From assembly GCF_900638685.1 (NCBI RefSeq), contig NZ_LR134533.1, positions 248,001 through 312,000 on the forward strand: a stretch of 64,000 nt of DNA, given 5' to 3'. Numbering within the stretch: the first letter of the stretch is position 1; each line of letters starts with the position of its first letter. Shown here piece after piece: positions 8,443 through 49,296 of this stretch. The notes below the pieces were generated by a model, which saw only the letters and a program-made list of their open reading frames with translations, did no database searches and was not told where the DNA came from. A program made the position numbers and the translations under genes. Source of the DNA: Neisseria weaveri (GTDB lineage Bacteria; Pseudomonadota; Gammaproteobacteria; Burkholderiales; Neisseriaceae).

Positions 8443-8520
8443 ACGTATCATTCTTTCAAAATATTCAGACGGCCTTTCTTTACCGGTTGTTTGCCTGTCA
8501 CCCAAAGGCCGTCTGAAAAA

Positions 8521-9240
8521 TTATCTTTTCGCTTTGCGCTGCGGATAATGTTTTTCCACCCAAACAATCGCTTCTTTGGCTGCTTCCTGCTCCGCACTCT
8601 TTCTGCTACCGCCGGTTGCACGGCAAATAAAACCCAACTCGCCCAAGTCGCAGGAAACGGTAAATTTCACGTCTTGAGCATCCGTGGTTTGTTCTTCAAT
8701 ACGGTATTTGGGCAGATCAAAACGCCTCGCCTGCAAGGCCTCCTGCAACAGCGTTTTGCTGTCCTTACCCTGGTTTTTGAAATCGACGGTTTTCACTCTG
8801 CCTGAAAATAAACGGCGGACAACGCTTTCGGCTTCCGAAAAATCCGCATCCAAGCTGACAGCGGCAAACAAGGCTTCAACAGCATCGGCCAAGATAGAAG
8901 GCCGTCTGAAACCGCCGCTTTTCAACTCGCCCGTTCCGAGAAACAAAGCTTCACCGATGTTCATTTCGATTGCGATGTCGGCCAACACCGCTTCATTGAC
9001 CAGATTGGAACGCAAGCGCGAGAGCTCGCCTTCACTTAATTTAGGAAAAGCGTCAAACAGCATTTTCGCTACTGTATAGTCCAAAACGGCATCGCCGATA
9101 AATTCCAAGCGTTCGTTGTTTTTGGCCGAATAACTGCGGTGCGTCAACGCCTGCACCAGCAGCTCCGTATTTCGGAAAGAATAACCCAGTTTTTTTTGAA
9201 TATGCGCCAGGGCATTTTGTTTGATCAAATCTTGCTTCAT
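8521..9240 (-). CDS. rnc: Ribonuclease III
   Basis: RNase III cleaves double-stranded RNA in rRNA and mRNA processing. The catalytic signature NERLEFIGDAVLDYTVA (start ~38) and the second acidic site LADAVEALFAAV (~106-117) are intact. The C-terminal dsRNA-binding domain ends GGSRKSAEQEAAKEAI. I used the ATG at 9240 (239 aa); a TTG five codons earlier is possible. The gene lies between lepB and era. An in-frame DUS is read as FRRPS at ~8900. Confidence 0.96.
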   Translation of the reverse strand: MKQDLIKQNALAHIQKKLGYSFRNTELLVQALTHRSYSAKNNERLEFIGDAVLDYTVAKMLFDAFPKLSEGELSRLRSNLVNEAVLADIAIEMNIGEALFLGTGELKSGGFRRPSILADAVEALFAAVSLDADFSEAESVVRRLFSGRVKTVDFKNQGKDSKTLLQEALQARRFDLPKYRIEEQTTDAQDVKFTVSCDLGELGFICRATGGSRKSAEQEAAKEAIVWVEKHYPQRKAKR

Positions 9241-9326
9241 CACTGTCTTTCGCAACAGCCTGAATGCTTTTCAATACTGCAGGCCAATATTGAAAAGGCT
9301 TGAGGCTGGAAAACTTTCATATTAAA

Positions 9327-9351
9327 GGCCGTCTGAAATTTTCAGACGGCC
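9327..9351. terminator. DUS inverted pair upstream of rnc
   Basis: GGCCGTCTGAA and its complement with a TTT-like loop form an 11-bp stem in the rnc upstream region. Confidence 0.55.
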
Positions 9352-9537
9352 GGGCTATTGTACCTTATTCGCCTCACTCTATGGAAACAGTATTACCCTT
9401 ATGGCAAGCAGGTTTTATCGGCAATATGCTTTAATTTCCAAAATCAGGCAATCCGGCCATGGTCGGACTTTACCTTCTCCAACACAAAAAGATGAATTTA
9501 CATCAACAGTATTTAATACACGGTTAAAACCGTTAAA

Positions 9538-9565
9538 AAGGCCGTCTGAAATTTCAGACGGCCTT
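9538..9565. terminator. DUS inverted-pair terminator after lepB
   Basis: A perfect stem built from AAGGCCGTCTGAA and its complement lies about 19 bp beyond the lepB stop on the minus strand. Confidence 0.75.
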
Positions 9566-9583
9566 ATCCGGTGTCATTTCTCT

Positions 9584-10567
9584 TTATTGGATTTTCGTGC
9601 CGATTCGGCTGAAATCGCCGAAGTTCATCCAAACAAAGAAAGCCTTGCCGACAATCAACCGGTCGCTGACAAAACCCCAATAGCGCGAATCTTCGCTATT
9701 GTCACGGTTATCGCCCATCATAAAATAATGACCTTCGGGAACGGTACATTTGAATGCGGAGCCGTCTTCCGCATAAGTACAGTTGCCCCTAAACGCAAAA
9801 TCGCTACGCACGCCTTGCGGCAGAAAAGCAGGCTGGTTCGGCATTTTCAACACTTGAAACACTCGGCCGCCGAGCTTTTCCTCAAACGCTTCCGCTTCGA
9901 TATTCACCATACCGTATTGACGGGTATTTTCCTGATAACCGTACATACCGACAGGATGTTCCCCAACCGCCTCGCCGTTGATGCGTAAAACCTTGTCGTT
10001 ATATTCGACCACATCGCCCGGCACACCTACCGCGCGCTTGATGTAATTGATTTTTTCATCTTCAGGATAGTTGAACACCACCACGTCGCCGCGTTCCACC
10101 GTACCGGTCGGAACCAATACATTATTGATTACCGGCGTACGGATACCGTATGAAAACTTGTTGACCAAAATAAAATCGCCAACCACCAAACCCGGACGCA
10201 TCGAGCTGGAAGGAATCTGAAACGGCTCGGCAATAAAAGTACGCACCACAAACACAATCAAAATAATCGGAAAAAATCCGCTCATGTAATCGGTAAAGTG
10301 GTTATCGTCATGACTGCCGTTTTTTTTCAGACGGCCTTTATGGATAAACCAAACAATGCCGGTAAACAAAACAAAAATCAGCAAGACCGCGGTAAAACTC
10401 ATAAATACCGACAGCATTCCGAATACGCCGACCATCATCAGCAGGTAACCCCACTGCAGGCCGCCGTGCCATTCGCCGTTCTCCTCACGCTGCTTGCTGC
10501 TTCGGAAAAACAGCACCAAACCGGCAATAAAAACCGCAACCGCACCCCAAGTTAAGGTGTTTCCCAT
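9584..10567 (-). CDS. lepB: Signal peptidase I
   Basis: LepB removes signal peptides from secreted proteins at the outer face of the inner membrane. Two N-terminal membrane segments (~4-22 and 41-76) precede the catalytic serine block QIPSSSMRPGLVVGDFILVNK. The catalytic lysine block is RGDVVVFNYPEDEKINYIKRAVG, and the family box is GDNRDNSEDSRYWGFV. At 327 aa it is typical. The ATG overlaps the lepA stop by one nucleotide (TAATG), so translation is coupled. A DUS is read in frame as KGRLKK in the cytoplasmic loop. Confidence 0.97.
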   Translation of the reverse strand: MGNTLTWGAVAVFIAGLVLFFRSSKQREENGEWHGGLQWGYLLMMVGVFGMLSVFMSFTAVLLIFVLFTGIVWFIHKGRLKKNGSHDDNHFTDYMSGFFPIILIVFVVRTFIAEPFQIPSSSMRPGLVVGDFILVNKFSYGIRTPVINNVLVPTGTVERGDVVVFNYPEDEKINYIKRAVGVPGDVVEYNDKVLRINGEAVGEHPVGMYGYQENTRQYGMVNIEAEAFEEKLGGRVFQVLKMPNQPAFLPQGVRSDFAFRGNCTYAEDGSAFKCTVPEGHYFMMGDNRDNSEDSRYWGFVSDRLIVGKAFFVWMNFGDFSRIGTKIQ

Positions 10568-31835: not shown

Positions 31836-34409
31836 ATGAGATTCGATAAATTAACCGCAAAATTCCAACAAGCTCTGGCCGATGCCCAGAGCTTGGCTTT
31901 AGCTGCCGACAACAGTTATCTCGAAGCAGGCCATGTATTGAAAGCCCTGCTCGACGATGCCGAAGGCGGCACCGCAGCCCTGCTTTCACACGCCGGTGTA
32001 AACGTACCCCAAGTAAAACAACAGCTTACCCAAACTTTGAACAGCTTGCCCAAAGTATCCGGCACCGGCGGCGAAATCCTGCCCAGCCGCGAATTGCAGG
32101 CCGTCTTAAACCTGATGGACAAAGCCGCCGTGAAGCGCGGCGATGCCTATATCGCCAGCGAACTGTTCCCGCTTGCCTTGGTACAGCAAAACGACAACAC
32201 CGGCCGCATTCTGAAAAACGCCGGAGCCACCGAACAAAACATCAACGCCGCCATTGACGCGGTACGCGGAGGAGCCGCTGTGGATAACCCTAATGCCGAA
32301 GACCAACGTCAAGCCCTGAAAAAATACACGCTCGATTTAACCCAACGCGCCCGCGAAGGCAAGCTCGATCCGGTTATCGGCCGCGACGACGAAATCCGCC
32401 GCGCCATCCAAGTCTTGCAACGCCGCACCAAAAACAACCCCGTGTTAATCGGCGAACCCGGCGTGGGTAAAACCGCCATTGTGGAAGGCTTGGCGCAACG
32501 CATCGTCGATGGCGAAGTGCCCGATTCGCTGCGCAACAAACGCCTGCTGGTGCTTGATTTGGCCGCATTGATTGCCGGTGCCAAATACCGCGGCGAGTTT
32601 GAAGAACGCCTGAAGGCCGTCTTAAACGATTTGGCTAAAGACGACGGCAACACTTTGATTTTCATTGATGAAATCCACACGCTTGTCGGCGCGGGCAAGG
32701 CAGATGGCGCAATGGATGCAGGCAATATGCTCAAACCCGCTTTGGCACGCGGCGAGTTGCACTGTATCGGTGCCACCACTTTGGACGAATACCGCCAATA
32801 CATTGAAAAAGATGCCGCGCTGGAGCGCCGCTTCCAAAAAGTATTGGTGGGCGAGCCGAGCGTGGAAGACACCATCGCCATTCTGCGCGGCTTGCAGGAG
32901 CGTTACGAAATCCACCACGGCATCGACATCACCGACCCGGCCATCGTTGCCGCCGCAGAGTTGAGCAACCGCTACATTACCGACCGTTTCCTGCCCGATA
33001 AAGCCATTGACTTGATTGACGAAGCCGCCAGCCGCATCAAAATGGAATTGGATTCCAAACCCGAGCAGATGGACAAACTCGACCGCCGCATCATCCAACT
33101 TAAAATGGAAAGAATGCACGTTGAGAAAGAAAGCGACGATGCCAGCAAAAAACGCCTCGATTTAATCGACGAAGAAATCGCCGGACTGCAAAAAGAATAC
33201 GCCGATTTGGACGAAATCTGGAAAGCCGAAAAAGCCGCTTCCGCCGGCACTGCCGACATCAAAAAACAAATCGACGACATCAAAGTCAAAATCGAGCAGG
33301 CCAAACGCCAAGGCGACTTCGCCCGCGCATCCGAGCTGGAATACGGCGAACTGCCCAAACTCAGCCAACAGCTGCAAGCGCTGGAAAACAATCCGCAAGA
33401 GCAGCAGGCCAACAAACTCTTCCGCACCAAAGTGGGCGCGGACGAAGTGGCCGAAATCGTATCGCGCATGACCGGCATTCCGGTGAGCAAAATGATGGAA
33501 GGCGAACGCGACAAGCTCTTGAAAATGGAAGAAGTATTGCACAACCGTGTGGTGGGACAAAACGAGGCCGTGCGCGCCGTATCCAATGCCATCCGCCGCT
33601 CACGCTCCGGCTTGGCCGATCCCAACAAGCCCTACGGCAGCTTCCTTTTCTTAGGCCCGACCGGTGTCGGCAAAACCGAGCTGTGCAAAGCATTGGCGAG
33701 CTTCCTGTTTGACAGCGAAGACCATTTAATCCGCATCGATATGTCGGAATACATGGAAAAACACGCCGTTGCCCGCTTAATCGGCGCACCTCCCGGCTAC
33801 GTCGGCTACGAAGAAGGCGGCTACCTAACCGAACAAGTCCGCCGCAAACCTTACAGCGTGATCCTGCTCGACGAAGTGGAGAAAGCCCACCCCGACGTGT
33901 TCAACATCCTGCTGCAAGTGCTGGACGACGGCCGCTTGACCGACGGTCAAGGCCGCACGGTAGACTTTAAAAACACCGTGATCGTGATGACTTCCAACAT
34001 CGGCAGCCACCACATCCAGCAAATGGGCACATCGGATTACGAGGCCGTGAAAGAAGTGGTCATGGAAGACGTAAAAGAACACTTCCGCCCCGAAATGATT
34101 AACCGTATCGACGAAGTGGTCGTGTTCCACGGCTTGGATCAGGCCAATATCCGCAGCATCGCCAAAATCCAGCTCAAAGGCTTGGAAAAACGCCTTGCCG
34201 CCCAAAACCTGCACCTCAAAGTCGACGATGCCGCACTGGATCTAATCGCCAAAGCAGGCTTCGACCCCGTGTACGGCGCACGTCCGCTCAAACGCGCCAT
34301 CCAAGCGGAAATCGAAAACCCGCTGGCTCTGGCTCTGCTCGAAGGCAAATATCAGCCTGAAAGTGTTATTCATGTGAAAGCGGATGGGGATAAGCTGGCG
34401 TTTGATTGA
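31836..34409 (+). CDS. clpB: ATP-dependent disaggregase ClpB
   Basis: ClpB rescues aggregated proteins with DnaK. At 857 aa it is full length. It has the N-domain ([22 protein letters not shown]), NBD1 Walker [14 protein letters not shown] (~203) and Walker [14 protein letters not shown] coiled-coil middle domain follows at ~405-525. NBD2 has Walker [10 protein letters not shown] (~605), Walker [17 protein letters not shown] and Arg-finger region. AAGGAAGC precedes the ATG. A heat-shock promoter was not recognised by eye. Confidence 0.98.
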
Positions 34410-34421
34410 TTCGTTAATAAC

Positions 34422-34455
34422 AATAGGCCGTCTGAAAATTTTCAGACGGCCTATT
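34422..34455. terminator. DUS inverted pair after clpB, left edge of the NTPase-nuclease locus
   Basis: A perfect 16-17-bp stem AATAGGCCGTCTGAAAA and complement, just after the clpB stop. It bounds the island at 34537-38552 on its left. Confidence 0.82.
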
Positions 34456-34536
34456 ACCTATTATTATGATGATTTCAATGAACTAAGAAATAAACCTTGA
34501 TAAAATTCATTACATTATCTTCATTAAACACAGAAA

Positions 34537-37446
34537 ATGTCTCACGAAAACTTTTACCTACCTCGCAGACTACAAACACCTGTCGGCAAAATTTATCAGC
34601 AATCTGAGCTTCTCGGCCTAAATCATAAGCTGATTATCATATTGGCTGAACCGGGTGCTGGAAAAACATCTTTATTAGACAGCCTAGCCAAGCAATTAAG
34701 TACACAAAAATTTACTGCCAATACTTTTATTTATCAAACTGTTTCTAGTAATACCGATTTAGTGATAGATGCTTTTGATGAATTGGCAAGAATAGATGAT
34801 TCCGGCATTTTCAAAATCATCGGTCAAGTTAAAAGTGCCCAACCGAATAGACTAATCTTATCCAGCCGTTCGGGTGAATGGTATGAAAGCTATACTCAAT
34901 TCTGCAAAGAGATCTTTGGAGAAGAACCATTGGTCGTTTATCTCAATGCTTTTAATGAAAAAGAACAAAAAGCATTATTTGAACATTATTGTCCTACTGA
35001 AAATTTTAGTGTCTTCCAGCGAGAAGCAGAGCGAATTGAACTCACTCCCTTATTGATTAATCCCCTTTTCTTAAGAATTTTCTCCGGTGCATATTTAGAA
35101 AGTGGAAAAACATTTACCAACCGACGTACTGCATTTCAAAAAGCAATAGAAAATCTAGCTAAAGAAAATAACCCATGTATTTCAGCAAGAAACACCCTGC
35201 CATCTGAACAAAAAATAGCACTTGCTGAAGATATCTTCGCTAAATTATTGCTATCAGGTTCGGAAGGTGTAAGCGTTAGTGATCAAGCCACAACCCGATT
35301 TTATCCGCATATCAGCACCCTGCATGACAATCCGCAAATCAAAGAAATTTTAGCGACCCAACTTTTTCATCCGGCAGAGCAAACCGAGCAACATAAGCCC
35401 GCACACAGAATTATTGCAGAATATTGTGCCGCGCAATATTTGGCAAAACGCTTGCAGTCAGCTACTGATCCGCTATCACTCCGCCAATGCTTATCTATTA
35501 TTGCCCCCAATGGCACAACTCGTGACGAATTAAGGGGATTAATAGCTTGGCTTGCCGCCTTAACTGAAAATCAGAACATTCAAGAAACTCTAATTGATTT
35601 AGACCCTTATGCTGTCTTAGCAAACGGAGATCCTTCTTTATTATTACCATCATCTAAAATGAAGCTCTTACACCGATTAAAAGATTTGAATGAGCAAAAT
35701 CCTCTTTTCCGTCGTAGCGACAGATGGAGGAGCTTTAGCGTATTCGGTTTTTTTACTTCGGATACGGTTCTTGAAATTAAAGGATTATTACAAGAAAAAA
35801 ACAGCACCGGACACCTACAAGATTTGCTATTGGAATTATTGGAAGATTCGTTAATTTTGCCGCAATTGACCAACGAGCTTAAATACATTCTGCGTAATGT
35901 AGGAACTGGACGCAGTGAGCGGTATATCCGTAATACAGCAAGCCGCTGTTTATTAAAAGTTACGGATTATGATCACAAAAGCAATTTTAATTTTTTGCTT
36001 GATGAAGCTGGAGAAACATCTCTGCAAATTGCAGCAGAAATGGTAATGACTTTGCCAACCGGTATTTTTGAAAAAACAGATCTTCTACGTCTACTCCGAG
36101 CTTGTGAGAAATTATATTCTGTCAGCTACCTCCAGCCCCGCATTTTTGGCACAAGATTTTTTATTAGAGAGCTTATTCAAAAATTAGATTTGGAAACTGT
36201 CGAATATTTGCTAAATAAGCTTTCTGCCAATTTATCATGCACCTGCAATGTAGAATATAACTGTCAATGCCGTATCGGTATCAGCAAAATTATCGGCAGG
36301 TTATTAGATCGTTATTTTGAATTGGCTACCCAACCCTATTGTCCTGAACAAGTTTGGCAATGGATTGGTAACCTATATTTTCAAAACTGCATCACAAAAG
36401 AAAAAAGTCTTTCTGTGCAAATCTTGCAAGAAGACGATAAGTTAAGGCAAAGCATTTTCAAGCTTTTATTTGAGCATGAAACTGAGTATGAAAAAATAAA
36501 TGAGATCAAATGGAAGAAACTTGAGTGGCATGGACATGCGGGCTTGTTTTTCCAACAACAAGATTATTGGTATATCGTTAATTTAGCTTTTAAAATAGGT
36601 AATACAGGACTATGGGAATTCTTCATCCCTCGATATCATCCATATAATAAAGAAAAACTCCCCAACCCACTACGAAAACATATGCGTGAGCAAGCATTAC
36701 AAAAACCGAAATTATTACGCATATGGGCAAAAGATAACCGAAATGTCAAATCATGTTTTAAAAAATCCGCTTGTAACTTCAAAATCGGTAGAAGACGGAA
36801 AAAATATGATCATAGACAAAAAATGATCCGTGAAAAGAATATCCAATATATACAGGAAAACAGAGAATTAGTAGAAAGTGGTAGACACTGGCGGTGTTTA
36901 CAAAGGTTTTCTTCCTTAACTTTAATGAACCCACAAAAAATCATTGAAGAATTCGGTGACGAAAACCTCGTTAGAAATGCTTTATGCAATTGCCTTGAAT
37001 TTATTGCGCCACATGTCCCCGACTTGGCAGAACTAGCACAGCTTCAATGTAAATCCGAATTTCTTAATGTAGTGCAAGTTTTATATGCTGCTTGTTTAGA
37101 AATATTTAGACGGGACAAAAATCTAAACAGAGTTTCGTTTGAGTTTTTAACTGCGTTAAGAACTCATTTAAATACGCACTACCCTGCAATATTGACAGAA
37201 GAACGAGATGGATTAAAGCAAGAAATTGACCGCTTGATCTTTAAAACGCCGCAGCAAGTAGAAAATTTTTTACGCAACTATATCGAACCCCAATTAACAG
37301 ATAGCAGTTGCCAACATCCGCAAGTAAGCTGGTTAAGGGATGAAAAATACTTCCAACCTTTAGAGAAATCCTATCTTTGGAATGGCTTGTCCGTTTTCCA
37401 AACATATTTGGATACGCGCAAAAAGAACTGTTTGAGCAAGCAATAG
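34537..37446 (+). CDS. NACHT/STAND-like P-loop NTPase, N-terminal part (969 aa)
   Basis: The protein begins MSHENFYLPRRL and quickly reaches an NTPase domain. Walker A is AEPGAGKTS (37-45, Lys43), and Walker B is LVIDAFDEL (75-83, Asp78, Asp81, Glu82). A sensor-like arginine follows in LILSSRSGEW (~107-116). The spacing and the acidic DAFDEL resemble NACHT/STAND NTPases. The remaining ~750 residues are helical and repeat-like, a probable ligand-sensing region, with a CxC...CxC cluster (LSCTCNVEYNCQC) that could bind zinc. It ends TRKKNCLSKQ at a stop just past an A5 tract. Shifted back one base there it continues TRKKELFEQ into the nuclease part. Family membership is motif-based. Confidence 0.7.
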   Translation: MSHENFYLPRRLQTPVGKIYQQSELLGLNHKLIIILAEPGAGKTSLLDSLAKQLSTQKFTANTFIYQTVSSNTDLVIDAFDELARIDDSGIFKIIGQVKSAQPNRLILSSRSGEWYESYTQFCKEIFGEEPLVVYLNAFNEKEQKALFEHYCPTENFSVFQREAERIELTPLLINPLFLRIFSGAYLESGKTFTNRRTAFQKAIENLAKENNPCISARNTLPSEQKIALAEDIFAKLLLSGSEGVSVSDQATTRFYPHISTLHDNPQIKEILATQLFHPAEQTEQHKPAHRIIAEYCAAQYLAKRLQSATDPLSLRQCLSIIAPNGTTRDELRGLIAWLAALTENQNIQETLIDLDPYAVLANGDPSLLLPSSKMKLLHRLKDLNEQNPLFRRSDRWRSFSVFGFFTSDTVLEIKGLLQEKNSTGHLQDLLLELLEDSLILPQLTNELKYILRNVGTGRSERYIRNTASRCLLKVTDYDHKSNFNFLLDEAGETSLQIAAEMVMTLPTGIFEKTDLLRLLRACEKLYSVSYLQPRIFGTRFFIRELIQKLDLETVEYLLNKLSANLSCTCNVEYNCQCRIGISKIIGRLLDRYFELATQPYCPEQVWQWIGNLYFQNCITKEKSLSVQILQEDDKLRQSIFKLLFEHETEYEKINEIKWKKLEWHGHAGLFFQQQDYWYIVNLAFKIGNTGLWEFFIPRYHPYNKEKLPNPLRKHMREQALQKPKLLRIWAKDNRNVKSCFKKSACNFKIGRRRKKYDHRQKMIREKNIQYIQENRELVESGRHWRCLQRFSSLTLMNPQKIIEEFGDENLVRNALCNCLEFIAPHVPDLAELAQLQCKSEFLNVVQVLYAACLEIFRRDKNLNRVSFEFLTALRTHLNTHYPAILTEERDGLKQEIDRLIFKTPQQVENFLRNYIEPQLTDSSCQHPQVSWLRDEKYFQPLEKSYLWNGLSVFQTYLDTRKKNCLSKQ

Positions 37447-38552
37447 AATTTGATACCAATCGAGAACAACTCAAAGATTTGATTACCAATAGATGTCAAA
37501 CATTACTGAACAACTACCCTGAGAAAACAAATGACGAGCAACTGGAAAATAGCCGTAACTTCTGGTTTATCCATGCTTTCTATTTGTTAGAAACAGGATA
37601 TGAACCATATTGGCAATGGCTGGCTCAAGATAAAGATACTATTTTTATCTTAGATGAACATATCGGCAGTTTTGGAGATTATAGAGAGTGGCTAACACTT
37701 TCAGCCGAAAAAATAGAAGCCGTTTTAAACGCTTTTATAGATAAATGGCCTAAAGTAGATTTACCTAATATGTATGGTTCAGATAGCCCCAAGCCGGAAA
37801 AAGCTTACCGCTTCTTGAGCGATTTAATTTGGAAAATCGATAACGACAAATCCTGCAATCCGGTTCCTGTTATTGACCGCTTGCTGAATAATGACAAATA
37901 TGAAGTGTTTCATACAGGTCTGAAAAGCATTCGTTTTACTTATTTACAGAAAACCGCACTACAAAACTTTCAAGCGCCGGAAGCCCTGCAAATAAAAGCC
38001 ATGCTGGAGCAAAATGAAATTATCAGCATTGAACATTTCCGTACAGTATTGTTAGAAGAATTGCAACGCTATCAAGCTGATTTGAACGGACATGATATTA
38101 CCTCCAAAGATATTTTCTACGACGGAGGCCAACGGGTCGATGAAAATAGGGCAACACAAATCATTGCCGATCGTTTGAGACTTCGCCTTGAATCAAGAAG
38201 AGTTACAGTTACCTTGGAACATCAAATGCATGATACCAACCGCTGTGATTTTACCTGTTCTAAAATAGTTAATAATCAAAGGTTGTTATTGGTTACCGAA
38301 GTAAAAGGGCAATGGCATCGTGCACTTTATTCGGCAGCAGAAGAGCAATTATACGAGCGCTACGCCAACCACCCTAATACCCATCAGCAAGGCATTTACT
38401 TGGTTTTATGGTTTGGTGCGCAAGAAGAAGTAGCCGGTAGAACTAAACATGAATTTTCAAATGCAACAGACTTAAAAATCAGTATTGAGCAAAAAATTCC
38501 TGAAAATTTGAAAAAGCAGATTGATGTTTTTGTTTTGGATGTTTCAAGATAA
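37377..38552 (+). CDS. PD-(D/E)XK nuclease-containing C-terminal part (-1 frame)
   Basis: This frame is open from a TTG at 37377, but its first 16 codons overlap the NTPase frame and look unnatural. Real homology-like sequence seems to begin at KELFEQAIEFDTNREQL. No ribosome binding site precedes the TTG, so it is probably not an independent gene. Residues ~250-345 (counted from the TTG) show a nuclease core: E257 in DENRATQIIADRL, D291 in CDFTC, E308-V-K310 in LLLVTEVKGQWH. These are followed by a conserved-looking helix YSAAEEQLYERYA and strand GIYLVLWF. This fits the restriction-endonuclease fold. Either a -1 ribosomal slip or a 1-bp deletion separates it from the NTPase. Confidence 0.65.
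   Translation: MEWLVRFPNIFGYAQKELFEQAIEFDTNREQLKDLITNRCQTLLNNYPEKTNDEQLENSRNFWFIHAFYLLETGYEPYWQWLAQDKDTIFILDEHIGSFGDYREWLTLSAEKIEAVLNAFIDKWPKVDLPNMYGSDSPKPEKAYRFLSDLIWKIDNDKSCNPVPVIDRLLNNDKYEVFHTGLKSIRFTYLQKTALQNFQAPEALQIKAMLEQNEIISIEHFRTVLLEELQRYQADLNGHDITSKDIFYDGGQRVDENRATQIIADRLRLRLESRRVTVTLEHQMHDTNRCDFTCSKIVNNQRLLLVTEVKGQWHRALYSAAEEQLYERYANHPNTHQQGIYLVLWFGAQEEVAGRTKHEFSNATDLKISIEQKIPENLKKQIDVFVLDVSR
37419..37425 (+). other. Frame junction at C AAA AAG
   Basis: In the upstream frame the codons are CGC AAA AAG AAC. Re-reading one base gives CGC AAA AAA GAA CTG, which links YLDTRKK to ELFEQ smoothly. The homopolymer is five A's; six would restore a single open frame. The site is also a partial bacterial -1 slippery sequence. 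Confidence 0.6.
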
Positions 38553-38557
38553 TGATT

Positions 38558-38585
38558 AAGGCCGTCTGAAATTTCAGACGGCCTT
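38558..38585. terminator. DUS inverted pair, right edge of the NTPase-nuclease locus
   Basis: AAGGCCGTCTGAA and complement form a 13-bp stem 6 bp beyond the nuclease stop. It lies between convergent genes and can terminate both. Confidence 0.82.
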
Positions 38586-38591
38586 TACCAA

Positions 38592-39479
38592 TCACTCCTT
38601 AACCTTCTCACTCAAAAAATCAATAAAACTTCTCACCTTCGCACTTAAAAACGCACGATCCACATAAGCGGCATAAAGTTTTGCTGTCAGGAAATGATAA
38701 TCGGGCAGCAGGCGCACTACTCTGCCGGCGGTTAGGTCTTCGCAGGCGCACCATTCGGGTTGGAAGCCGATGCCGGCGCCGGCTCGGATCAAGCTGCCGA
38801 CCATGAGGGTGCTGTCGCTGTGTATGGCTGCGTTGAGTTCGAGCAGGCTGCGTTGGCCGTTGTGTTTGTGTTGGATTTCGAGGCGGCTCATGTCGGTGTA
38901 GGAAGGCAGCACTGCGGGGTGCTGCGCGGCTTCTTCGGGGGTTTGCGGTACGCCGTTGCGCCGTAGATAATCGGGTGAGGCTAAGAGGAAAAACTGAATA
39001 TCGGCCAAGGGTTTGACAATCAGTGAGGGGCCGGGGTCGTTGGAGACGCGTAAGGCGAGGTCAAAACCGTCGGCGATGAGGTCGGTGTGGCGGTTGCTGA
39101 GTACCAAGTTGAGGGATACTTCGGGATAGCGTTGTTTGTATTCGCTGATCCAGCGGCTGACGCGCGGACTGGCAAACCATTGCGGCATGGTGATGCGTAG
39201 GATGCCTTGCGGTTTTTCGGTAACGCCTGCGGCTTTTTGGGCGGCGGTTTCAAGGGTTTCGAGGGCGTGGCAGCATTGGCGGTAGTATTCTTCGCCGGTT
39301 TCGGTGAGGTGGAGGTTGCGGCTGTTGCGGTGTAAGAGTTTGGCTTGTAAGGTATTTTCTAAATGGCTGACGTGTTTGCTGGCCATGGCGTTGGAAATGC
39401 CGAGATGGTCGGCGGCGCGGGTGAAGCTGCCGTTTTCGACCACTTGGCGGAACACTTTGAGGCTGAACAGGGTATCCAT
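38592..39479 (-). CDS. LysR-family transcriptional regulator
   Basis: A 295-aa LysR regulator with an N-terminal winged helix (MDTLFSLKVFRQVVENGSFTRAADHLGISNAMASKHVSHLENTL, opening the domain). A periplasmic-binding-like effector domain follows from ~90. It is close in pattern to the redox or aromatic-responsive LysR proteins. It is divergent from doxX-nitroreductase-ygiD (gap 39480-39595), the typical arrangement for regulation of that cluster. The effector is unknown. Confidence 0.9.
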   Translation of the reverse strand: MDTLFSLKVFRQVVENGSFTRAADHLGISNAMASKHVSHLENTLQAKLLHRNSRNLHLTETGEEYYRQCCHALETLETAAQKAAGVTEKPQGILRITMPQWFASPRVSRWISEYKQRYPEVSLNLVLSNRHTDLIADGFDLALRVSNDPGPSLIVKPLADIQFFLLASPDYLRRNGVPQTPEEAAQHPAVLPSYTDMSRLEIQHKHNGQRSLLELNAAIHSDSTLMVGSLIRAGAGIGFQPEWCACEDLTAGRVVRLLPDYHFLTAKLYAAYVDRAFLSAKVRSFIDFLSEKVKE

Positions 39480-43227: not shown

Positions 43228-44235
43228 TCAGACGGCAACAGGCGCACGTAGCCTGTTGGCTGCTTTCAGCAGGTTCAAACACATCGCCTTCAGATGGCTT
43301 TGCGCACTCACTTTGCTCAGACCAAAATAAGTTGCCCGGGCATGGCGGAATTTACGGTGCAGCGTACCAAAGCTTTGTTCGACCACATAACGGGTTTTCG
43401 ATAAGTGTCGGTTACGTTTGGTTTGCGCTTCCGTCAGCGGCCGGTTGCGGTGGGATTTGCACATGATGCCGTCCCGCAACTGATGTTCTTCCAGATGTTG
43501 CCGGTTTTCCATACTGTCGTAGCCTTTATCGGCATAGACAGTCGTGCCTTTGGCTAGGCCTTCCAACAAAGGCAGCAGGTGTTTGCACTCATGGGCATTG
43601 GCGGCAGTGATGTGCAGTTTCTCAATGTAGCCTTCCGCATCGGTACGGGTATGTTGTTTGTAACCCGGATGGAAGCGGCCGTCTTTCTTTACCCAACGGG
43701 CATCGCTGTCTTTACTCGGTGTGGTTTGGCTGTTGACCCGCCCTTCGTCATCCACTTCTATGGCCTGACACTGTTTGCCGCCGGCCGTCTGAATAATGGT
43801 GGCGTCAACGATGGCGACGGATGCTTTCTCTACTTTTAAACCCTTGTCAGTCAGTTGGCGGTTAATCAGATCCAGTAATTCGGCCAAGGTGTTGTCTTGT
43901 GCCAGCCGGTTGCGGAAACGGCAAAGGGTGCTGTGGTCGGGAATGCAAAAGTCGTCGAAGCGGCAGAAGAGTTGGAAATCGATACGGGTGATGAGGCTGT
44001 GTTCGAGTTCGGGGTCGGAGAGGCTGTGCCATTGGCCGAGCAGGATGGCTTTGAACATGGACAGCAGGGGATAGGCGGGACGGCCGCGGTGGTCTCGAAG
44101 GTAACGGGTTCTTTGATGGTTGAGGTAATGCTCGATCGGTTGCCAATCAATCACCTGCTCCAGCTTCAGTAGAGGAAAGCGGTCGATGTGTTTGGCAATC
44201 ATGGCTTGTGCGGTTTGCTGAAAGAAGGTGCTCAT
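43228..44235 (-). CDS. IS5-family transposase (IS1106-like)
   Basis: A 335-aa DDE transposase. Landmarks are the N-terminal MSTFFQQTAQAMIAKHIDRF, the first Asp in VDATIIQTAGG (~141), the second in TTVYADKGYDS (~240), and the terminal Glu in KTRYVVEQSFGTLHRKF (~293). The open frame continues 47 codons upstream, but that part enters the ISL3 element, so the IS1106-type start at 44235 is used. The gene is full length. Its natural upstream sequence and end repeat are displaced by the ISL3 insertion 54 bp upstream of the ATG. Confidence 0.92.
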   Translation of the reverse strand: MSTFFQQTAQAMIAKHIDRFPLLKLEQVIDWQPIEHYLNHQRTRYLRDHRGRPAYPLLSMFKAILLGQWHSLSDPELEHSLITRIDFQLFCRFDDFCIPDHSTLCRFRNRLAQDNTLAELLDLINRQLTDKGLKVEKASVAIVDATIIQTAGGKQCQAIEVDDEGRVNSQTTPSKDSDARWVKKDGRFHPGYKQHTRTDAEGYIEKLHITAANAHECKHLLPLLEGLAKGTTVYADKGYDSMENRQHLEEHQLRDGIMCKSHRNRPLTEAQTKRNRHLSKTRYVVEQSFGTLHRKFRHARATYFGLSKVSAQSHLKAMCLNLLKAANRLRAPVAV

Positions 44236-44281
44236 GAAAAATCCCCTAAATGTCTTGGGAGGGAATTTAGGGGATTGGGAG

Positions 44282-44289
44282 GAATTTTG
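44282..44289. repeat. Left 8-bp target-site duplication of the ISL3 element
   Basis: GAATTTTG lies directly before the left inverted repeat and is repeated at 47661-47668 directly after the right repeat. Confidence 0.9.
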
Positions 44290-44376
44290 GGGTAAGCGGA
44301 TTAAATGGTTGATCTTACCTTTGCATGAGAGTGAGACAGACCGGCATCTCATCGGATTATCTGGTTGATGCTTCAC

Positions 44377-44784
44377 CTACTGCTGGTGCATGTTTCCTTC
44401 GCTAATTCCAGCAAGAACCCCACACGCCTCAACTTCCCGGTCATCGTTGCAACTCGCTCTCAGTGAAACGAGTTGTTTCTCAAGCGCTTGCAGAGCGGTT
44501 ATCTGCGACCGCACATGAGAGATGTGATCATCGAGCAAGGCGTTGACGGCGGTACAAGGCTGATGAGGGTCATCCTGATAGCTCTGTAGTTCGTGAATCT
44601 CAGCCAGTGACAGGCCTAGGATTCTGCAGCGACGGATGAAGGCCAGCCCCTCACCATGCTTCTCGGTATAGACACGGTAACCGTTGTCCTGCCGATCAGG
44701 CGGCGGCAACAAGCCCTGCTGTTCATAGAAGCGGATCGTCTGTGTTTCGACCCCTACCAACTGCGCCAACTGACCAATGCGCAT
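44377..44784 (-). CDS. MerR-family metal-responsive regulator (CadR/PbrR-like)
   Basis: A 135-aa regulator: MRIGQLAQLVGVETQTIRFYEQQGLLPPPDRQDNGYRVYTE (winged helix, ~1-41), a dimerisation helix, and a C-terminal metal loop with cysteines in QPCTAVN, ASCNDD and EACGVL. The pattern matches cadmium/lead-responsive MerR proteins. It is divergent from the transporter across a promoter with a 19-bp spacer. ATG 44784 is used; an alternative start five codons earlier exists. Confidence 0.88.
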   Translation of the reverse strand: MRIGQLAQLVGVETQTIRFYEQQGLLPPPDRQDNGYRVYTEKHGEGLAFIRRCRILGLSLAEIHELQSYQDDPHQPCTAVNALLDDHISHVRSQITALQALEKQLVSLRASCNDDREVEACGVLAGISEGNMHQQ

Positions 44785-44815
44785 CAGCCTCCTCCCCAAC
44801 GGATTCTTTACTCTA

Positions 44816-44846
44816 TTGACCTTATAGTAGCTTTATAGTTTAAAAT
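44816..44846 (+). promoter_or_regulatory. MerR-type promoter with 19-bp spacer
   Basis: TTGACC (44816-44821) and TAAAAT (44841-44846) are 19 bp apart, the overlong spacing that MerR-family activators correct. The spacer has a CTTATAGTAGCTTTATAG imperfect dyad. It drives the transporter on the plus strand. Confidence 0.72.
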
Positions 44847-44879
44847 GGTACCACAACATTGTTCAAGTGGAGTCGTATC

Positions 44880-45767
44880 ATGAGCAAATCCTGTGGTGGC
44901 GCCTGTGGCGGTGATGCAATGTCCGCAGCGGATACCGATATACAGGCCTCCTCCGAGGCGCTAGGGAAATGGGTCAGTGTTTATGCCGTGCCGAAGATGG
45001 ACTGTCCATCAGAAGAGCGAATGATTCGCCTAGCCCTGAACGGCTTTGAGGAGGTTCGGGCGCTGTCCTTCGACTTGTCGAACCGCCGGCTGAAGGTCGT
45101 GCATGACGGCGAGGTCGAGCCCGTCACCTCGAAACTGAAGACCTTGGGGCTAGGCGCCTCGCTTCAGGAAACCGTCGCTGCAAATCCGGAGACCATCAAG
45201 GCCGCCGAGTTTTCGGCAGCTTCTGCTAAGCAAGAATCCGGGACCCTGCGCTGGTTGCTCGGCATCAATGCACTTCTGTTCGTGGTGGAAATGACTGCCG
45301 GTCTGATCGCCCGGTCCACCGGCCTGATTGGAGAATCCCTGGACAATTTTGCCGATGCGGCGGTGTACGGGCTTGCCCTTTATGCGGTTGGACATAGCGT
45401 GAAAATGCAGGTACGTGCCGCGCATCTTGCTGGTGTACTGCAACTGATCTTGGCTGTGGGCGTGCTCGTAGAGGTGGTGAGACGCTTTGTATTCGGTAGT
45501 GAGCCTGAATCGCTGGTGATGATGGCTATCGCATTCGTCGCATTGATTGCCAATACCAGTTGTCTGCTGCTCATATCCAAACATCGGGAAGGTGGGGCGC
45601 ACATGAAGGCAAGCTGGATATTCTCGGCCAACGACGTGGTGATCAACCTGGGGGTCATCACCGCCGGCGCCCTGGTCGCGTGGACCGGTTCCAATTATCC
45701 GGATCTGATTATCGGCACCATCGCGGGGGCATTGTACTTAACGGTGCCAGACGCATTTTGGCGTTGA
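44880..45767 (+). CDS. CDF-type cation transporter of the IS, altered C-terminus
   Basis: A 295-aa membrane protein. The Cys-rich N-terminus (SKSCGGACGGDAMS) precedes an HMA-like metal-binding part (VPKMDCPSEERMIRLALNGFE). A cation-diffusion-facilitator region of about five helices follows (GINALLFVVEMTAGLIARSTGLIGESLDNFADAAVYG). It probably exports Zn/Cd. At the end the frame reads IAGALYLTVPDAFWR. Reading a sixth G in the G5 tract at 45725-45729 would give IAGGIVLNGARRILALKG, the expected family ending. So a 1-bp loss probably changes the last ~13 residues. Confidence 0.85.
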   Translation: MSKSCGGACGGDAMSAADTDIQASSEALGKWVSVYAVPKMDCPSEERMIRLALNGFEEVRALSFDLSNRRLKVVHDGEVEPVTSKLKTLGLGASLQETVAANPETIKAAEFSAASAKQESGTLRWLLGINALLFVVEMTAGLIARSTGLIGESLDNFADAAVYGLALYAVGHSVKMQVRAAHLAGVLQLILAVGVLVEVVRRFVFGSEPESLVMMAIAFVALIANTSCLLLISKHREGGAHMKASWIFSANDVVINLGVITAGALVAWTGSNYPDLIIGTIAGALYLTVPDAFWR

Positions 45768-45778
45768 AGGGTTAAATA

Positions 45779-46291
45779 ATGCTCATTATTGGCAAAAAGC
45801 TCTCGCCGTATGCCCTATTGTCCATATCGGGCCTGCTGGCAGCGTCTGATCAGGCTGTAAAGTGGCTGGTGCAGCAATCAATGGCCTATGGCGAGTATGT
45901 TTCGGTGACCCCGTTCTTTAACTGGGTGCACCTATGGAACACCGGTGCCGTATTCAGTCTTTTTGCGAATGGTGGAGGCTGGCAGCGCTACTTTTTTATC
46001 GGAATCACGGTAGTGGTCTCGATTTTTCTGATCAAGCTGATCCTTGAAAATCGTCATAAAGGAGAAGCCATCGCTTACAGTCTTATCCTCGGTGGCGCCA
46101 TGGGTAACCTGATTGACCGGGTCTTTCGCGGCTATGTTGTGGATTCCTTTGATTTCTATTGGCGAGACTGGCATTGGCCGGCCTTCAACCTGGCTGATAT
46201 TGCAATTGTCCTCGGTGCCTTACTTTTCGTTTCCAGCAGCTTGTTGGGTAAAAAAGCAAACACCAATGCCGAGTCGGATGGATCTGACTGA
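45779..46291 (+). CDS. lspA: Lipoprotein signal peptidase (on the ISL3 element)
   Basis: A 170-aa signal peptidase II. Four membrane segments and the catalytic aspartates are in GAMGNLIDRVFRGYVVDSFDFY and FNLADIAIVLG; an Asn-rich block, WNTGAVFSL, is also conserved. This is the mobile ISPpu12-type copy. It starts 11 bp after the transporter stop, in one operon with it, and should be under the MerR promoter. Confidence 0.93.
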   Translation: MLIIGKKLSPYALLSISGLLAASDQAVKWLVQQSMAYGEYVSVTPFFNWVHLWNTGAVFSLFANGGGWQRYFFIGITVVVSIFLIKLILENRHKGEAIAYSLILGGAMGNLIDRVFRGYVVDSFDFYWRDWHWPAFNLADIAIVLGALLFVSSSLLGKKANTNAESDGSD

Positions 46292-46312
46292 CACCTACGC
46301 CTATACAACACC

Positions 46313-47602
46313 ATGACCGAACTTCCCGACAACATCCTTCACCTGCCGCAATACCAAGTACTGGGCTGCAAATCAACCGACGACGAAATGCACTTCCAGG
46401 TGGACGTGCCCGATCCCATCGCCTGCGAGGAATGCGGCGTGCAGGGTGAGTTCGTACGGTTCGGCAAGCGTGACGTTCCCTATCGTGATCTGCCCATCCA
46501 CGGCAAACGGGTCACTCTCTGGGTGGTCCGCCGCCGATACACCTGCCGGGCCTGCAAGACAACATTCAGGCCCCAGCTACCGGAGATGGTGGACGGATTC
46601 CGTATGACACTGCGGCTGCATGAGTACGTGGAGAAGGAATCCTTCAACCACCCCTACACCTTTGTGGCGGCACAGACCGGCCTGGACGAGAAGACGGTGC
46701 GCGACATCTTCAACGCCCGCGCCGAGTTCCTGGGGCGCTGGCACCGCTTCGAGACGCCCCGCATCCTGGGCATTGACGAGCTATACCTGAACAAGCGCTA
46801 CCGCTGCATTCTGACCAACATTGAGGAGCGAACCCTGCTCGACCTGCTGGCCACCCGCCGCCAGGACGTGGTGACCAACTACCTGATGAAGCTGAAAGAC
46901 CGGCAGAAGGTCGAGATCGTCAGCATGGACATGTGGAACCCCTACCGGGCAGCGGTCAAGGCTGTGCTGCCCCAGGCCCGTATCGTGGTCGATAAGTTCC
47001 ATGTGGTGCGCATGGTCAACGATGCCCTAGAGAGAGTGCGCAAGGGCCTCAGAAAGGAGCTGAAACCGTCCCAGAGCCGGACTCTCAAGGGAGACCGGAA
47101 AATCCTGCTGAAACGCGCTCACGAAGTCTCAGACCGGGAGCGCCTCATCATGGAGACCTGGACAGGCGCGTTCCCGCAACTGCTGGCCGCCTACGAGCAC
47201 AAGGAGCGCTTCTACGGCATCTGGGACGCCACCACACGGCTCCAGGCAGAAGCCGCCCTGGACGAGTGGATAGCCACCATCCCGAAGGGCCAAAAGGAAG
47301 TCTGGAGCGATCTGGTCAGGGCAGTGGGAAACTGGCGCGAAGAGACCATGACCTACTTCGAGACGGACATGCCCGTCACCAACGCTTACACGGAGTCCAT
47401 CAACCGACTGGCCAAGGACAAGAACCGTGAAGGGCGCGGTTACTCCTTCGAGGTGATGCGGGCACGAATGCTCTACACCACGAAGCACAAGAAGAAGGCA
47501 CCGACTGCGAAGGTCTCTCCTTTCTACAAGAAAACCATCGGTTACGGACTGCCGGACTTCGCAGAGGAACTCAACTACGGAGTCGATCTATCAACCATCT
47601 GA
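46313..47602 (+). CDS. tnpA: ISL3-family transposase
   Basis: A 429-aa transposase. A zinc-finger-like N-terminus (CEECGVQGEFVRFGKRDVPYRDLP, then RRYTCRACKTTFRP) precedes a DDE domain. Its Asp residues are in ILGIDELYL (~160) and VSMDMWNPYRAAVKAVLP, followed by VVDKFHVVRMVND, and the Glu is in TNAYTESINRLAK. It is full length and intact, 34 bp before the right inverted repeat, so the element may be active. Confidence 0.93.
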   Translation: MTELPDNILHLPQYQVLGCKSTDDEMHFQVDVPDPIACEECGVQGEFVRFGKRDVPYRDLPIHGKRVTLWVVRRRYTCRACKTTFRPQLPEMVDGFRMTLRLHEYVEKESFNHPYTFVAAQTGLDEKTVRDIFNARAEFLGRWHRFETPRILGIDELYLNKRYRCILTNIEERTLLDLLATRRQDVVTNYLMKLKDRQKVEIVSMDMWNPYRAAVKAVLPQARIVVDKFHVVRMVNDALERVRKGLRKELKPSQSRTLKGDRKILLKRAHEVSDRERLIMETWTGAFPQLLAAYEHKERFYGIWDATTRLQAEAALDEWIATIPKGQKEVWSDLVRAVGNWREETMTYFETDMPVTNAYTESINRLAKDKNREGRGYSFEVMRARMLYTTKHKKKAPTAKVSPFYKKTIGYGLPDFAEELNYGVDLSTI

Positions 47603-47660
47603 GGGTGGTATCAGATTGATGGGGTGAAGGTGCCCCATCAACCATTAAATCCGTATACCC

Positions 47661-47668
47661 GAATTTTG
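47661..47668. repeat. Right 8-bp target-site duplication of the ISL3 element
   Basis: GAATTTTG, identical to 44282-44289. It also forms part of the IS5-family end sequence. Confidence 0.9.
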
Positions 47669-47707
47669 CAAAGGTCTCAGGCCTGTTTAACAAAACAAGG
47701 AAACATC

Positions 47708-48151
47708 ATGAACGTCTCCATCCGCCCGCTTACTCCAGAAAACGCCGAAGCATGGCAAATACTGTGGCAGGAATATTTGGCTTGCTGTCAAACCGAGTTG
47801 GCCGCCGGCGTTACCGTGCATACATGGCAGCAGATTGTCCGCAGCCGCAACATCAAAGGCTTGGCCGCGTTTGACCGACAAGGGCGGATGTTGGGTTTCG
47901 CCCACATTGTTCTGCACCCCAACACTTGGCACACCACCGATTGCTGCTGTCTCGAAGATTTGTTTGTCGGCAGCACATACCGCCGACTCGGCATCGCCCG
48001 GCTGCTGATCGAAGCAGTTTACCGTCTGGCGGAACAACAAAACTGCAACCGCGTCTATTGGGTAACGGCTCAAGACAATCACGCCGCCCAAGCCCTGTAC
48101 CGGCAAGTAGCGCGTCCGACCGGCATGATCCAATACCGCAAGGATTTTTAA
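47708..48151 (+). CDS. GNAT-family acetyltransferase
   Basis: A 147-aa N-acetyltransferase. CCCLEDLFVGSTYRRLGIARLLIEAVYRLAEQ gives the acetyl-CoA loop (RRLGIA), and VYWVTAQDNHAAQALYRQVARP the last strands. The substrate is unknown. AAGGAAAC lies before the ATG at 47708. The original upstream DNA is displaced by the IS insertion. Confidence 0.87.
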   Translation: MNVSIRPLTPENAEAWQILWQEYLACCQTELAAGVTVHTWQQIVRSRNIKGLAAFDRQGRMLGFAHIVLHPNTWHTTDCCCLEDLFVGSTYRRLGIARLLIEAVYRLAEQQNCNRVYWVTAQDNHAAQALYRQVARPTGMIQYRKDF

Positions 48152-48259
48152 ACAGCACCCGATTTTCAGACTGCCTCAAGCCCCGTTGAGTACCGCCGAC
48201 GGCATAAAAAACCGCCCGCTTGCCGTCATCACCGCACCAGCCATTCGGAGAGAACCGCC

Positions 48260-49192
48260 ATGCCTTCCCACCGACACCACGCCCACCACAACAACCTGCG
48301 CACGCTGGCGGTCAGCTTCGGCCTGATCGGCGGATTTATGTTGGTGGAATTTATCGGCGGTTTATGGTCGAACAGCTTGGCCTTACTCTCCGACGCCGGG
48401 CATATGCTCAGCGACGCCGCTTCGCTGCTGCTGGCCTTACTGGCCGTTGCTTGGGGCAGAAAAAACAGCACCGCACGGCACACATTCGGCTTTAAGCGGC
48501 TGGAAATTCTGGCCGCCCTGTTCAACGGCCTGACCCTGCTCGCCATCGCCGCCTACATCTGCTACGAAGCCGTTTCCCGACTCATGTCGCCCCAGAGCGT
48601 CGCCTCAACCGAAATGCTGGTCATCGCCGCCATCGGCTTGGGCATTAATCTATTTGTTGCTTGGTATATGCACCGCGGCGGCGATATCGAACACAACCTG
48701 AATATGAAAGCGGCCTACCTGCATGTGCTGGGCGACTTACTCGGCTCGCTCGCCGCCATAACCGCCGCCCTGCTGATCATGGCTTTCGGCTGGCTTTGGG
48801 CCGACCCGCTAACCAGCCTGATCGTGGCCGTTTTGATTGTACGCGGCGGCTGGTCTACCGCCCGGCAAGCCTGGCATATCTTGATGGAGGCCAGCCCCGA
48901 AATCGATTTGGAAGCAGTATTGGCGCTGTTGAAATCCGACCACCGCGTCCAATCCGTACACGACGTACATCTCTGGAGCATCGCCAGCGGCATCCATGCC
49001 CTATCCTGCCATTTGGTCGTTGACGGCAGTTTGACTGTCGCGGAAATCACCGATTTGCAGCACGTACTCGAACACAAACTGCACACACTCGGCATCCACC
49101 ACACCAGCATACAAATCGAAAGCACGGCACACGGACACGACGAAAGCATCTTATGCCGCCCCCAAGCCGAAAACCGTCACCATCACCATTAA
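48260..49192 (+). CDS. CDF-family metal exporter (CzcD/ZitB-like)
   Basis: A 310-aa cation-diffusion-facilitator. It has six predicted membrane helices; the metal-site motifs are SDAGHMLSDAASLLLAL (HxxxD, ~47-52) and YLHVLGDLLGSLAA (HxxxD, ~160). The histidine-rich ends (PSHRHHAHHNN; NRHHHH) and the cytoplasmic tail with VHDVHLWSIASGIHALSCHL are typical zinc exporters. It is a chromosomal gene, independent of the IS transporter. The start ATG at 48260 has GAACCGCC upstream, a weak ribosome binding site. Confidence 0.92.
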   Translation: MPSHRHHAHHNNLRTLAVSFGLIGGFMLVEFIGGLWSNSLALLSDAGHMLSDAASLLLALLAVAWGRKNSTARHTFGFKRLEILAALFNGLTLLAIAAYICYEAVSRLMSPQSVASTEMLVIAAIGLGINLFVAWYMHRGGDIEHNLNMKAAYLHVLGDLLGSLAAITAALLIMAFGWLWADPLTSLIVAVLIVRGGWSTARQAWHILMEASPEIDLEAVLALLKSDHRVQSVHDVHLWSIASGIHALSCHLVVDGSLTVAEITDLQHVLEHKLHTLGIHHTSIQIESTAHGHDESILCRPQAENRHHHH

Positions 49193-49256
49193 ACACCCTA
49201 ATTTTCCGATTGCCGCAAACCGTCAAGCCGGGCAATTTGTTTTTTGCAATTTTTAT

Positions 49257-49296
49257 CAGGCCGTCTGAAAATTAAGGCCGTCTGAAAAGACGGCCT
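49257..49296. terminator. Multiple DUS with hairpin after the CDF exporter
   Basis: Two direct DUS (AGGCCGTCTGAAAA and AAGGCCGTCTGAAAA) and a complementary AGACGGCCT fragment form a local hairpin between convergent genes. Confidence 0.6.

Follow-up and report, generated by a model that had tools for sequence, protein, structure and literature searches.

What does the AT-rich stretch at positions 34537–38552 of a 64,000-nucleotide window of the Neisseria weaveri genome (contig NZ_LR134533.1, positions 248,001–312,000) encode, and could its product still work? From the letters alone, the original prediction had placed there one possibly undescribed defence protein, in which a NACHT/STAND-like nucleoside triphosphatase (NTPase) is joined to a C-terminal PD-(D/E)XK nuclease. 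We found that the span holds two open reading frames (ORFs), ORF A and ORF B, both on the forward strand and overlapping by 70 bases in different frames. ORF A matched the NCBIfam profile NF058535.1, 'NACHT domain-containing antiphage protein EruA', with E = 6.1e-264 and 879.4 bits over profile positions 12–944 of 1318, and ORF B matched the same profile with E = 1.9e-120 and 404 bits over positions 937–1318. Because E-values of this order to one family profile came from two pieces lying in the correct order, chance can be excluded. Judged by sequence, ORF A and ORF B are the two halves of one eruA gene broken by a frameshift, and the window gene is a broken member of a known defence family. 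The defence-type protein proposed at the outset was thus borne out, the split having been hinted at only by the words 'joined protein'; the family was not undescribed, as NCBIfam already names it antiphage.

In the alignment, judged by eye, family homology switches from frame A to frame B at approximately 37360–37385, and the final 25 or so residues of ORF A lie outside the family's frame. No further break was seen between 34537 and 38552, and the gene departs from the single intact frame of EruA at this junction. The family identity would have escaped PADLOC and Pfam alone, because only NCBIfam gave the EruA match: a PADLOC scan of ORF A returned weak matches confined to the P-loop region, and a Pfam scan of ORF B returned no match. 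Sequence searches of Protein Data Bank (PDB) chains were similarly silent, with no match up to E = 1 for ORF A alone, a best E of 0.01, to the P-loop of AAA proteins, for the ORF A alignment described below (A3), and a best E of 0.086, to unrelated proteins, for the ORF B alignment (A2).

The gene has a G+C content of 37.3%, compared with 50.8% in the rest of the window, in agreement with the AT-richness noted earlier, and its third-position G+C content is 32–34% against 66% for clpB. Within the genus Neisseria, eruA was present in 1 of 46 genomes. We consider it quite probable that a single eruA gene, acquired horizontally, fills the span and has been frameshifted into a 5′ piece encoding the NTPase and most of the helical region and a 3′ piece encoding the last helices and the nuclease, and that its intact relatives are most likely STAND switches with a C-terminal nuclease.

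Conserved residues, predicted folds and relatives of EruA

Scanning of genome and viral contigs with a seven-sequence alignment (A1) revealed 188 relatives in genome contigs, 80 of which were kept, and 8 in viral contigs; ORF B used by itself as the query retrieved none from the genome contigs. The record titles include proteobacteria, which we assign to the Gamma-, Alpha- and Betaproteobacteria, together with Desulfoluna, Desulfocapsa, cyanobacteria and one Streptomyces. Three intact relatives scored 1252–1471 bits over almost the full length, against an EruA cut-off of 1000. Across the phylum, the EruA profile was matched to some degree in 67 of 398 genomes, many of these being short P-loop matches, and above the cut-off in 9; among 14 control genomes the corresponding counts were 2 and 0. 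ORF B also matched 21 plasmid records, 15 of them typed as conjugative, and one phage record. The gene of a Salmonella relative had no match in E. coli at megablast sensitivity.

Two alignments, with rows hand-picked among the relatives to thin near duplicates, revealed strictly conserved positions in both halves. For ORF A (A3; the window and 59 relatives, 34–49% identical to it), K43, D78, D81, E82, R111, C568, C570, C576 and C578 were invariant in 60 of 60 rows, confirming the predicted Walker A lysine, the Walker B motif DAFDEL at residues 78–83 and the two CxC motifs at 568 and 576. The four cysteines form a possible metal site; ORF A carries a further CxC at 817. For ORF B (A2; the window and 67 relatives, 22–51% identical), E256, E281, D291, E308, K310, Q324 and Y329 were invariant in all 68 rows. 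D291 and the E308-V-K310 motif had been predicted correctly, but residue 257, read as the first acid of the core, is N, the conserved acid being E256; the invariant E281 was absent from the earlier list.

The two pieces were modelled separately with AlphaFold. The model of ORF A (pLDDT 89.1, pTM 0.66) consists of an alpha/beta NTPase followed almost entirely by helices, including a single helix of about 50 residues at 724–774. Foldseek searching of this model against the PDB gave 19 matches at E ≤ 0.001, of which 13 carry titles naming NLRC4, NOD2, NLRP7, NAIP5, SAMD9 or Avs4 and 4 are oocyte cytoplasmic lattices; such lattices contain NLRP proteins. In a viral fold search, ORF A had a single match at E ≤ 0.001, to a siphovirus protein named as NLR-like. 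The invariance and the NLR/STAND matches place the N-terminal NACHT/STAND P-loop NTPase of EruA in ORF A. In the model of ORF B (pLDDT 88.0, pTM 0.62), helices are followed by a helix (256–274), three strands (277–283, 289–298 and 301–311), a helix (320–329) and a last strand (339–345), an order that we take to be that of PD-(D/E)XK nucleases; D291 lies in the second strand, and E308 and K310 in the third. Here the fold search put the nucleases Can2, MUS81, PaqCI, BamHI, MspJI and FokI at E 0.08–0.2. Modelling thus agreed with an NLR/STAND-like ORF A and with a nuclease-like strand order in ORF B, although the fold matches of the latter were weak, and for that reason the nuclease call rests more on motif, invariance and strand order. 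The nuclease-like core recurs in the relatives (68 of 68 rows, same order of strands and helices) and is absent from the NCBIfam title; by alignment and model, a C-terminal nuclease is a trait of the EruA family. The family match, the conservation and the predicted folds therefore agree with the original prediction of a defence protein whose NACHT/STAND NTPase is followed by a C-terminal PD-(D/E)XK-type nuclease.

Table 1. Features of the eruA locus and its flanks (window coordinates).
Feature	Position	Strand	Description
ORF A	34537..37446	+	969 aa; N-terminal NACHT/STAND NTPase, then helical region
ORF B	37377..38552	+	391 aa; last helical part and C-terminal PD-(D/E)XK-type nuclease
Frame change from ORF A to ORF B	37360..37446	+	ORF overlap and alignment
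Strand and Walker A (P-loop), Lys43	34627..34671	+	Residue check and alignment
Walker B strand and DAFDEL	34759..34785	+	ORF A residues 78–83
CxC...CxC cluster	36238..36270	+	C568, C570, C576, C578
Nuclease core	38142..38552	+	E256, E281, D291, E308-V-K310, Q324 and Y329 of ORF B; invariant except V309
Left DUS palindrome	34422..34455		AG dialect, terminator-like, downstream of clpB stop
Right DUS palindrome	38553..38590		
Left flank gene	31836..34409	+	Presumably clpB; named without family search
Right flank gene	38592..39479	-	Presumably LysR-type regulator; named without family search

The neighbours of the relatives were compared with control ORFs. The 143 ORFs adjacent to relatives matched 239 PADLOC models at 1e-10 and the 142 control ORFs matched 39; because 25 models were shown per set and proteins were left unassigned, these figures are an indication and not a count of systems, and although they agree with the proposed defence context they support it more weakly than the family match does. 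Among the 25 models shown, those of the neighbours included AbiE, SduA, type I S, DruM, HmaA and Avs2, and those of the controls were mainly DpdF and SspB. Of the 80 genome loci, 75 supplied neighbour ORFs, which were called mechanically; L031, L043, L066 and L074 were excluded, as were all viral loci, and L090 yielded no passing ORF; 143 of 148 were used, five second neighbours being dropped. The controls came from 20 stretches at round-number (not random) positions in 11 genomes that matched the family search, and ORFs of more than 900 aa were excluded from both sets. Pfam matches of the neighbours included integrases, HipA, the anti-restriction protein ArdC and transposases.

In intact relatives, the N-terminal NACHT module would bind nucleotide and the long helical middle would sense an infection signal; nucleotide exchange would then drive oligomerisation, bringing together the C-terminal PD-(D/E)XK nucleases, which would cut DNA and either stop phage growth or kill the infected cell. 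The sensing, oligomerisation, DNA substrate and abortive outcome of EruA are all inferred steps. In the window protein the P-loop is preceded by only about 36 residues, and apart from the NTPase the one enzyme-like domain is C-terminal; EruA is likely a switch with its sensor in the middle and its nuclease at the tail.

Several results weigh against reading the span as a member of an antiphage STAND family with a nuclease tail. Taken separately, both pieces fall below the EruA cut-off. No Pfam model reached its gathering score on ORF A, where nSTAND3 (PF20720) scored 26.6 of 27.2 bits and NACHT (PF05729) 26.0 of 26.7. The Foldseek TM-scores of ORF A were low (0.14–0.33 by query length) and 2 of its 19 PDB matches were plainly unrelated, and for ORF B the fold search gave no match at E ≤ 0.001, its top rows being acetyl-CoA carboxylase and similar proteins. 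The PADLOC comparison counted models and not proteins, so that overlapping models inflate 239 against 39, and many neighbours were ordinary metabolic genes, pyruvate kinase and SmpB among them (by Pfam, used here without a control set). Among the literature matches listed, from which subscription papers and preprints were mostly absent, no paper on EruA as an antiphage protein was found. Because the paper behind the name was not found, the antiphage phenotype rests on the NCBIfam wording. Last, the broken copy retains every invariant residue, as would be expected if the break were very recent or an error of sequencing.

Causes and consequences of the split

With switch and nuclease on separate pieces, the window copy is most likely inactive; a working defence protein from this copy is doubtful, provided that the frameshift is not an artefact of sequencing. 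Such an error, in sequencing or assembly, would leave the strain with an intact, working eruA, and we regard it as unlikely but as the strongest of the alternatives. It would account for the retained residues in ORF A and ORF B and for the lack of a visible second break, and it has a precedent in the plasmid of Vibrio campbellii ATCC BAA-1116, where the A part is one piece in NC_009777.1 and two in NC_022271.1. However, long single-base runs are the commonest place for sequencing frameshift errors, and none occurs at the break, the longest run in 37341–37450 being five A at 37420, past the break. Breaks are also frequent within the family, although some of these may themselves be errors. Among 85 tail-bearing loci (L027–L111; 84 distinct, as L058 equals L111), 70 carry the gene in a full-length single frame, 9 are broken, with homology present on either side of the break (L027, L044, L063, L081, L087, L094, L095, L103 and L106), in 3 the front is missing within a contig (L078, L084 and L097) and 3 lie at or near a contig end (L088, L090 and L107).

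The nine broken relatives have their breaks at scattered places, and breakage is therefore recurrent and not tied to one programmed spot. This argues against cooperation of ORF A and ORF B, either as separate switch and nuclease products or through ribosomal frameshifting, to which we give little credence: the 70-base overlap and the conserved residues kept in both ORFs would suit it, but most relatives are single-frame, none of the other breaks falls at the window junction and TTG is the only start codon of frame B in 37344–37600. Programmed frameshifting was disfavoured as a candidate by the scattered positions, and phase variation was set aside as no simple repeat was visible by eye at the junction, where no run exceeds the five A given above. 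A housekeeping NTPase–nuclease, acting for example in transformation or repair, is highly improbable, since its core-like adjoining genes (read from sequence) and the lack of a recognised defence gene beside eruA are outweighed by the rarity of eruA in the genus, its low G+C content, the antiphage family name and relatives that adjoin defence-type genes and occur on plasmids.

Other split copies were also observed. The V. campbellii plasmid gene (L003, 6167–10200) is annotated as two pieces in one public record, and an eruA gene of Desulfoluna limicola (L044) is interrupted at reference residue 915 by about 1.7 kb without family homology (8223–9905). As a frameshifted eruA gene, the window copy extends a named defence family by a defective Neisseria member and is a further example of decay among such genes.

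A variable cassette site at the 3′ end of clpB

The gene lies between two palindromes of the DNA uptake sequence (DUS), which correspond to the flanking hairpins noted originally. As also claimed, the interval is free of perfect 10-base DUS: none occurs between 34451 and 38560, against 88 in the whole window. This DUS-free stretch is not unique, the longest in the window being 43794–49259. Of the 12-base DUS in the window, 71 have the AG form and 7 the AT form, an excess that fits commensal Neisseria species.

We compared the site in a near set of seven genomes, the window included, with clpB ends at least 93% identical and one genome per species. In the sister genome G045, the flanks are about 96% identical and homology ends at both palindromes, between which lies another cargo of 0.73 kb, a small protein without family match. 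In G002, a single palindrome is directly followed by the right flank; the slot is empty there, and the LysR gene is largely missing as well. Through these two genomes, different cassettes were found between the same conserved flanks, as in a minimal mobile element. The slot otherwise holds an alpha/beta hydrolase in G028, a type ISP/IIG restriction-modification enzyme in G041 (by family search) and G026 (by clustering with G041), and type III Res and Mod in G006. Four of the seven near genomes therefore carry a defence-type gene in the slot, of three kinds, with one assignment made by clustering only. The left palindrome is present in six of the seven (not in G006), and the right palindrome stands at the cargo end in three: the window, G045 and G028. 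The right flank of the window is common only to G045 and G002 among the six near relatives; the other four have different genes after the cargo. The 3′ end of clpB is thus a variable cassette site in the near genomes (window 34422–38590; L195–L200). The type ISP/IIG gene of G041 (L196, 122–5528) is itself split into two ORFs, as is that of G026.

Four ORFs were scanned in 34 more distant genomes. One encodes a primase, for which PADLOC gave DnaG-like DRT models, and another an ABC transporter, which it matched to mad3; for the remaining two, a SurA/rotamase protein and a member of a 'site-specific recombinase' family, it gave nothing.

The cassette site is more interesting than the eruA gene itself. 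We tentatively suggest, with doubt having the upper hand, that the clpB 3′ end serves this Neisseria clade as an integrase-free defence hotspot. Uptake and homologous recombination would there exchange entire defence cassettes (carrying EruA, type ISP/IIG or type III restriction-modification), and the palindromes would act as uptake signal, terminator and boundary; EruA would be an NLR-like switch in reversed order, its nuclease at the tail. If so, commensal Neisseria would store defence genes in slots bounded by DNA-uptake repeats and not in integrase-borne islands, and natural transformation would be tied to the turnover of phage defence. None of the literature matches listed was recognised as dealing with a cassette site at clpB.

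Elsewhere in the window, the stretch at 43794–49259 holds what we take to be two cation-efflux-like proteins, an lspA-like protein and an ISL3-like transposase (named without family search) and, because of this gene content, is perhaps a metal-resistance insertion. Another AT-rich stretch, with a G+C content of 35.4%, occupies positions 1–2000 and carries, on the minus strand, an ORF that is open-ended and at least 358 aa long.

Comparison with known systems

Neisseria minimal mobile elements are whole-gene cassettes that vary between conserved genes, a variation attributed to homologous recombination in PMC3082526. The same cassette variation occurs at the clpB site, but between species, each represented by one genome, and not between strains, and both flanks are common to only two of the six near relatives.

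Among the literature matches listed, the only bacterial protein called EruA is an E. coli regulator and none describes HyoA as an antiphage protein, the sole use of that name concerning mouse lung. DefensePredictor counts NACHT and PD-(D/E)XK proteins among its new systems, and neither 'Eru' nor 'Hyo' occurs in the main text (PMC13092281). HyoA (NF058534.1) resembles ORF A in part of the NACHT and helical region (E = 2.7e-23), but the score of 81.6 bits lies far under the cut-off of 1200, and ORF B has no match to it.

In STAND proteins, according to PMC12169576 and PMC12724215, the effector is N-terminal and the sensor C-terminal, and bNACHT and Avs proteins proceed from sensing through nucleotide binding and oligomerisation to effector activation. 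Avs4 (8dgf) was a Foldseek match of ORF A (E 1.7e-6, probability 1.00). In Avs and classical STAND proteins, however, the effector precedes the NTPase, whereas in the window protein the P-loop lies near the start and the nuclease is C-terminal; close relatives likewise align from near the P-loop, the start codons of L004 and L008 being uncertain. The clade 6 proteins bNACHT25 and bNACHT32 join NACHT to a PD-(D/E)XK DNase that is required for phage protection, as described in PMC12169576. Set beside EruA by description only, they share both modules, but their nuclease is N-terminal and that of EruA C-terminal. The closest counterpart is EruA (NF058535.1) itself, with which the window gene shares nearly its whole length, the domain order and the invariant residues, and from which it differs by the frameshift that splits it into two pieces, each scoring below 1000 bits.

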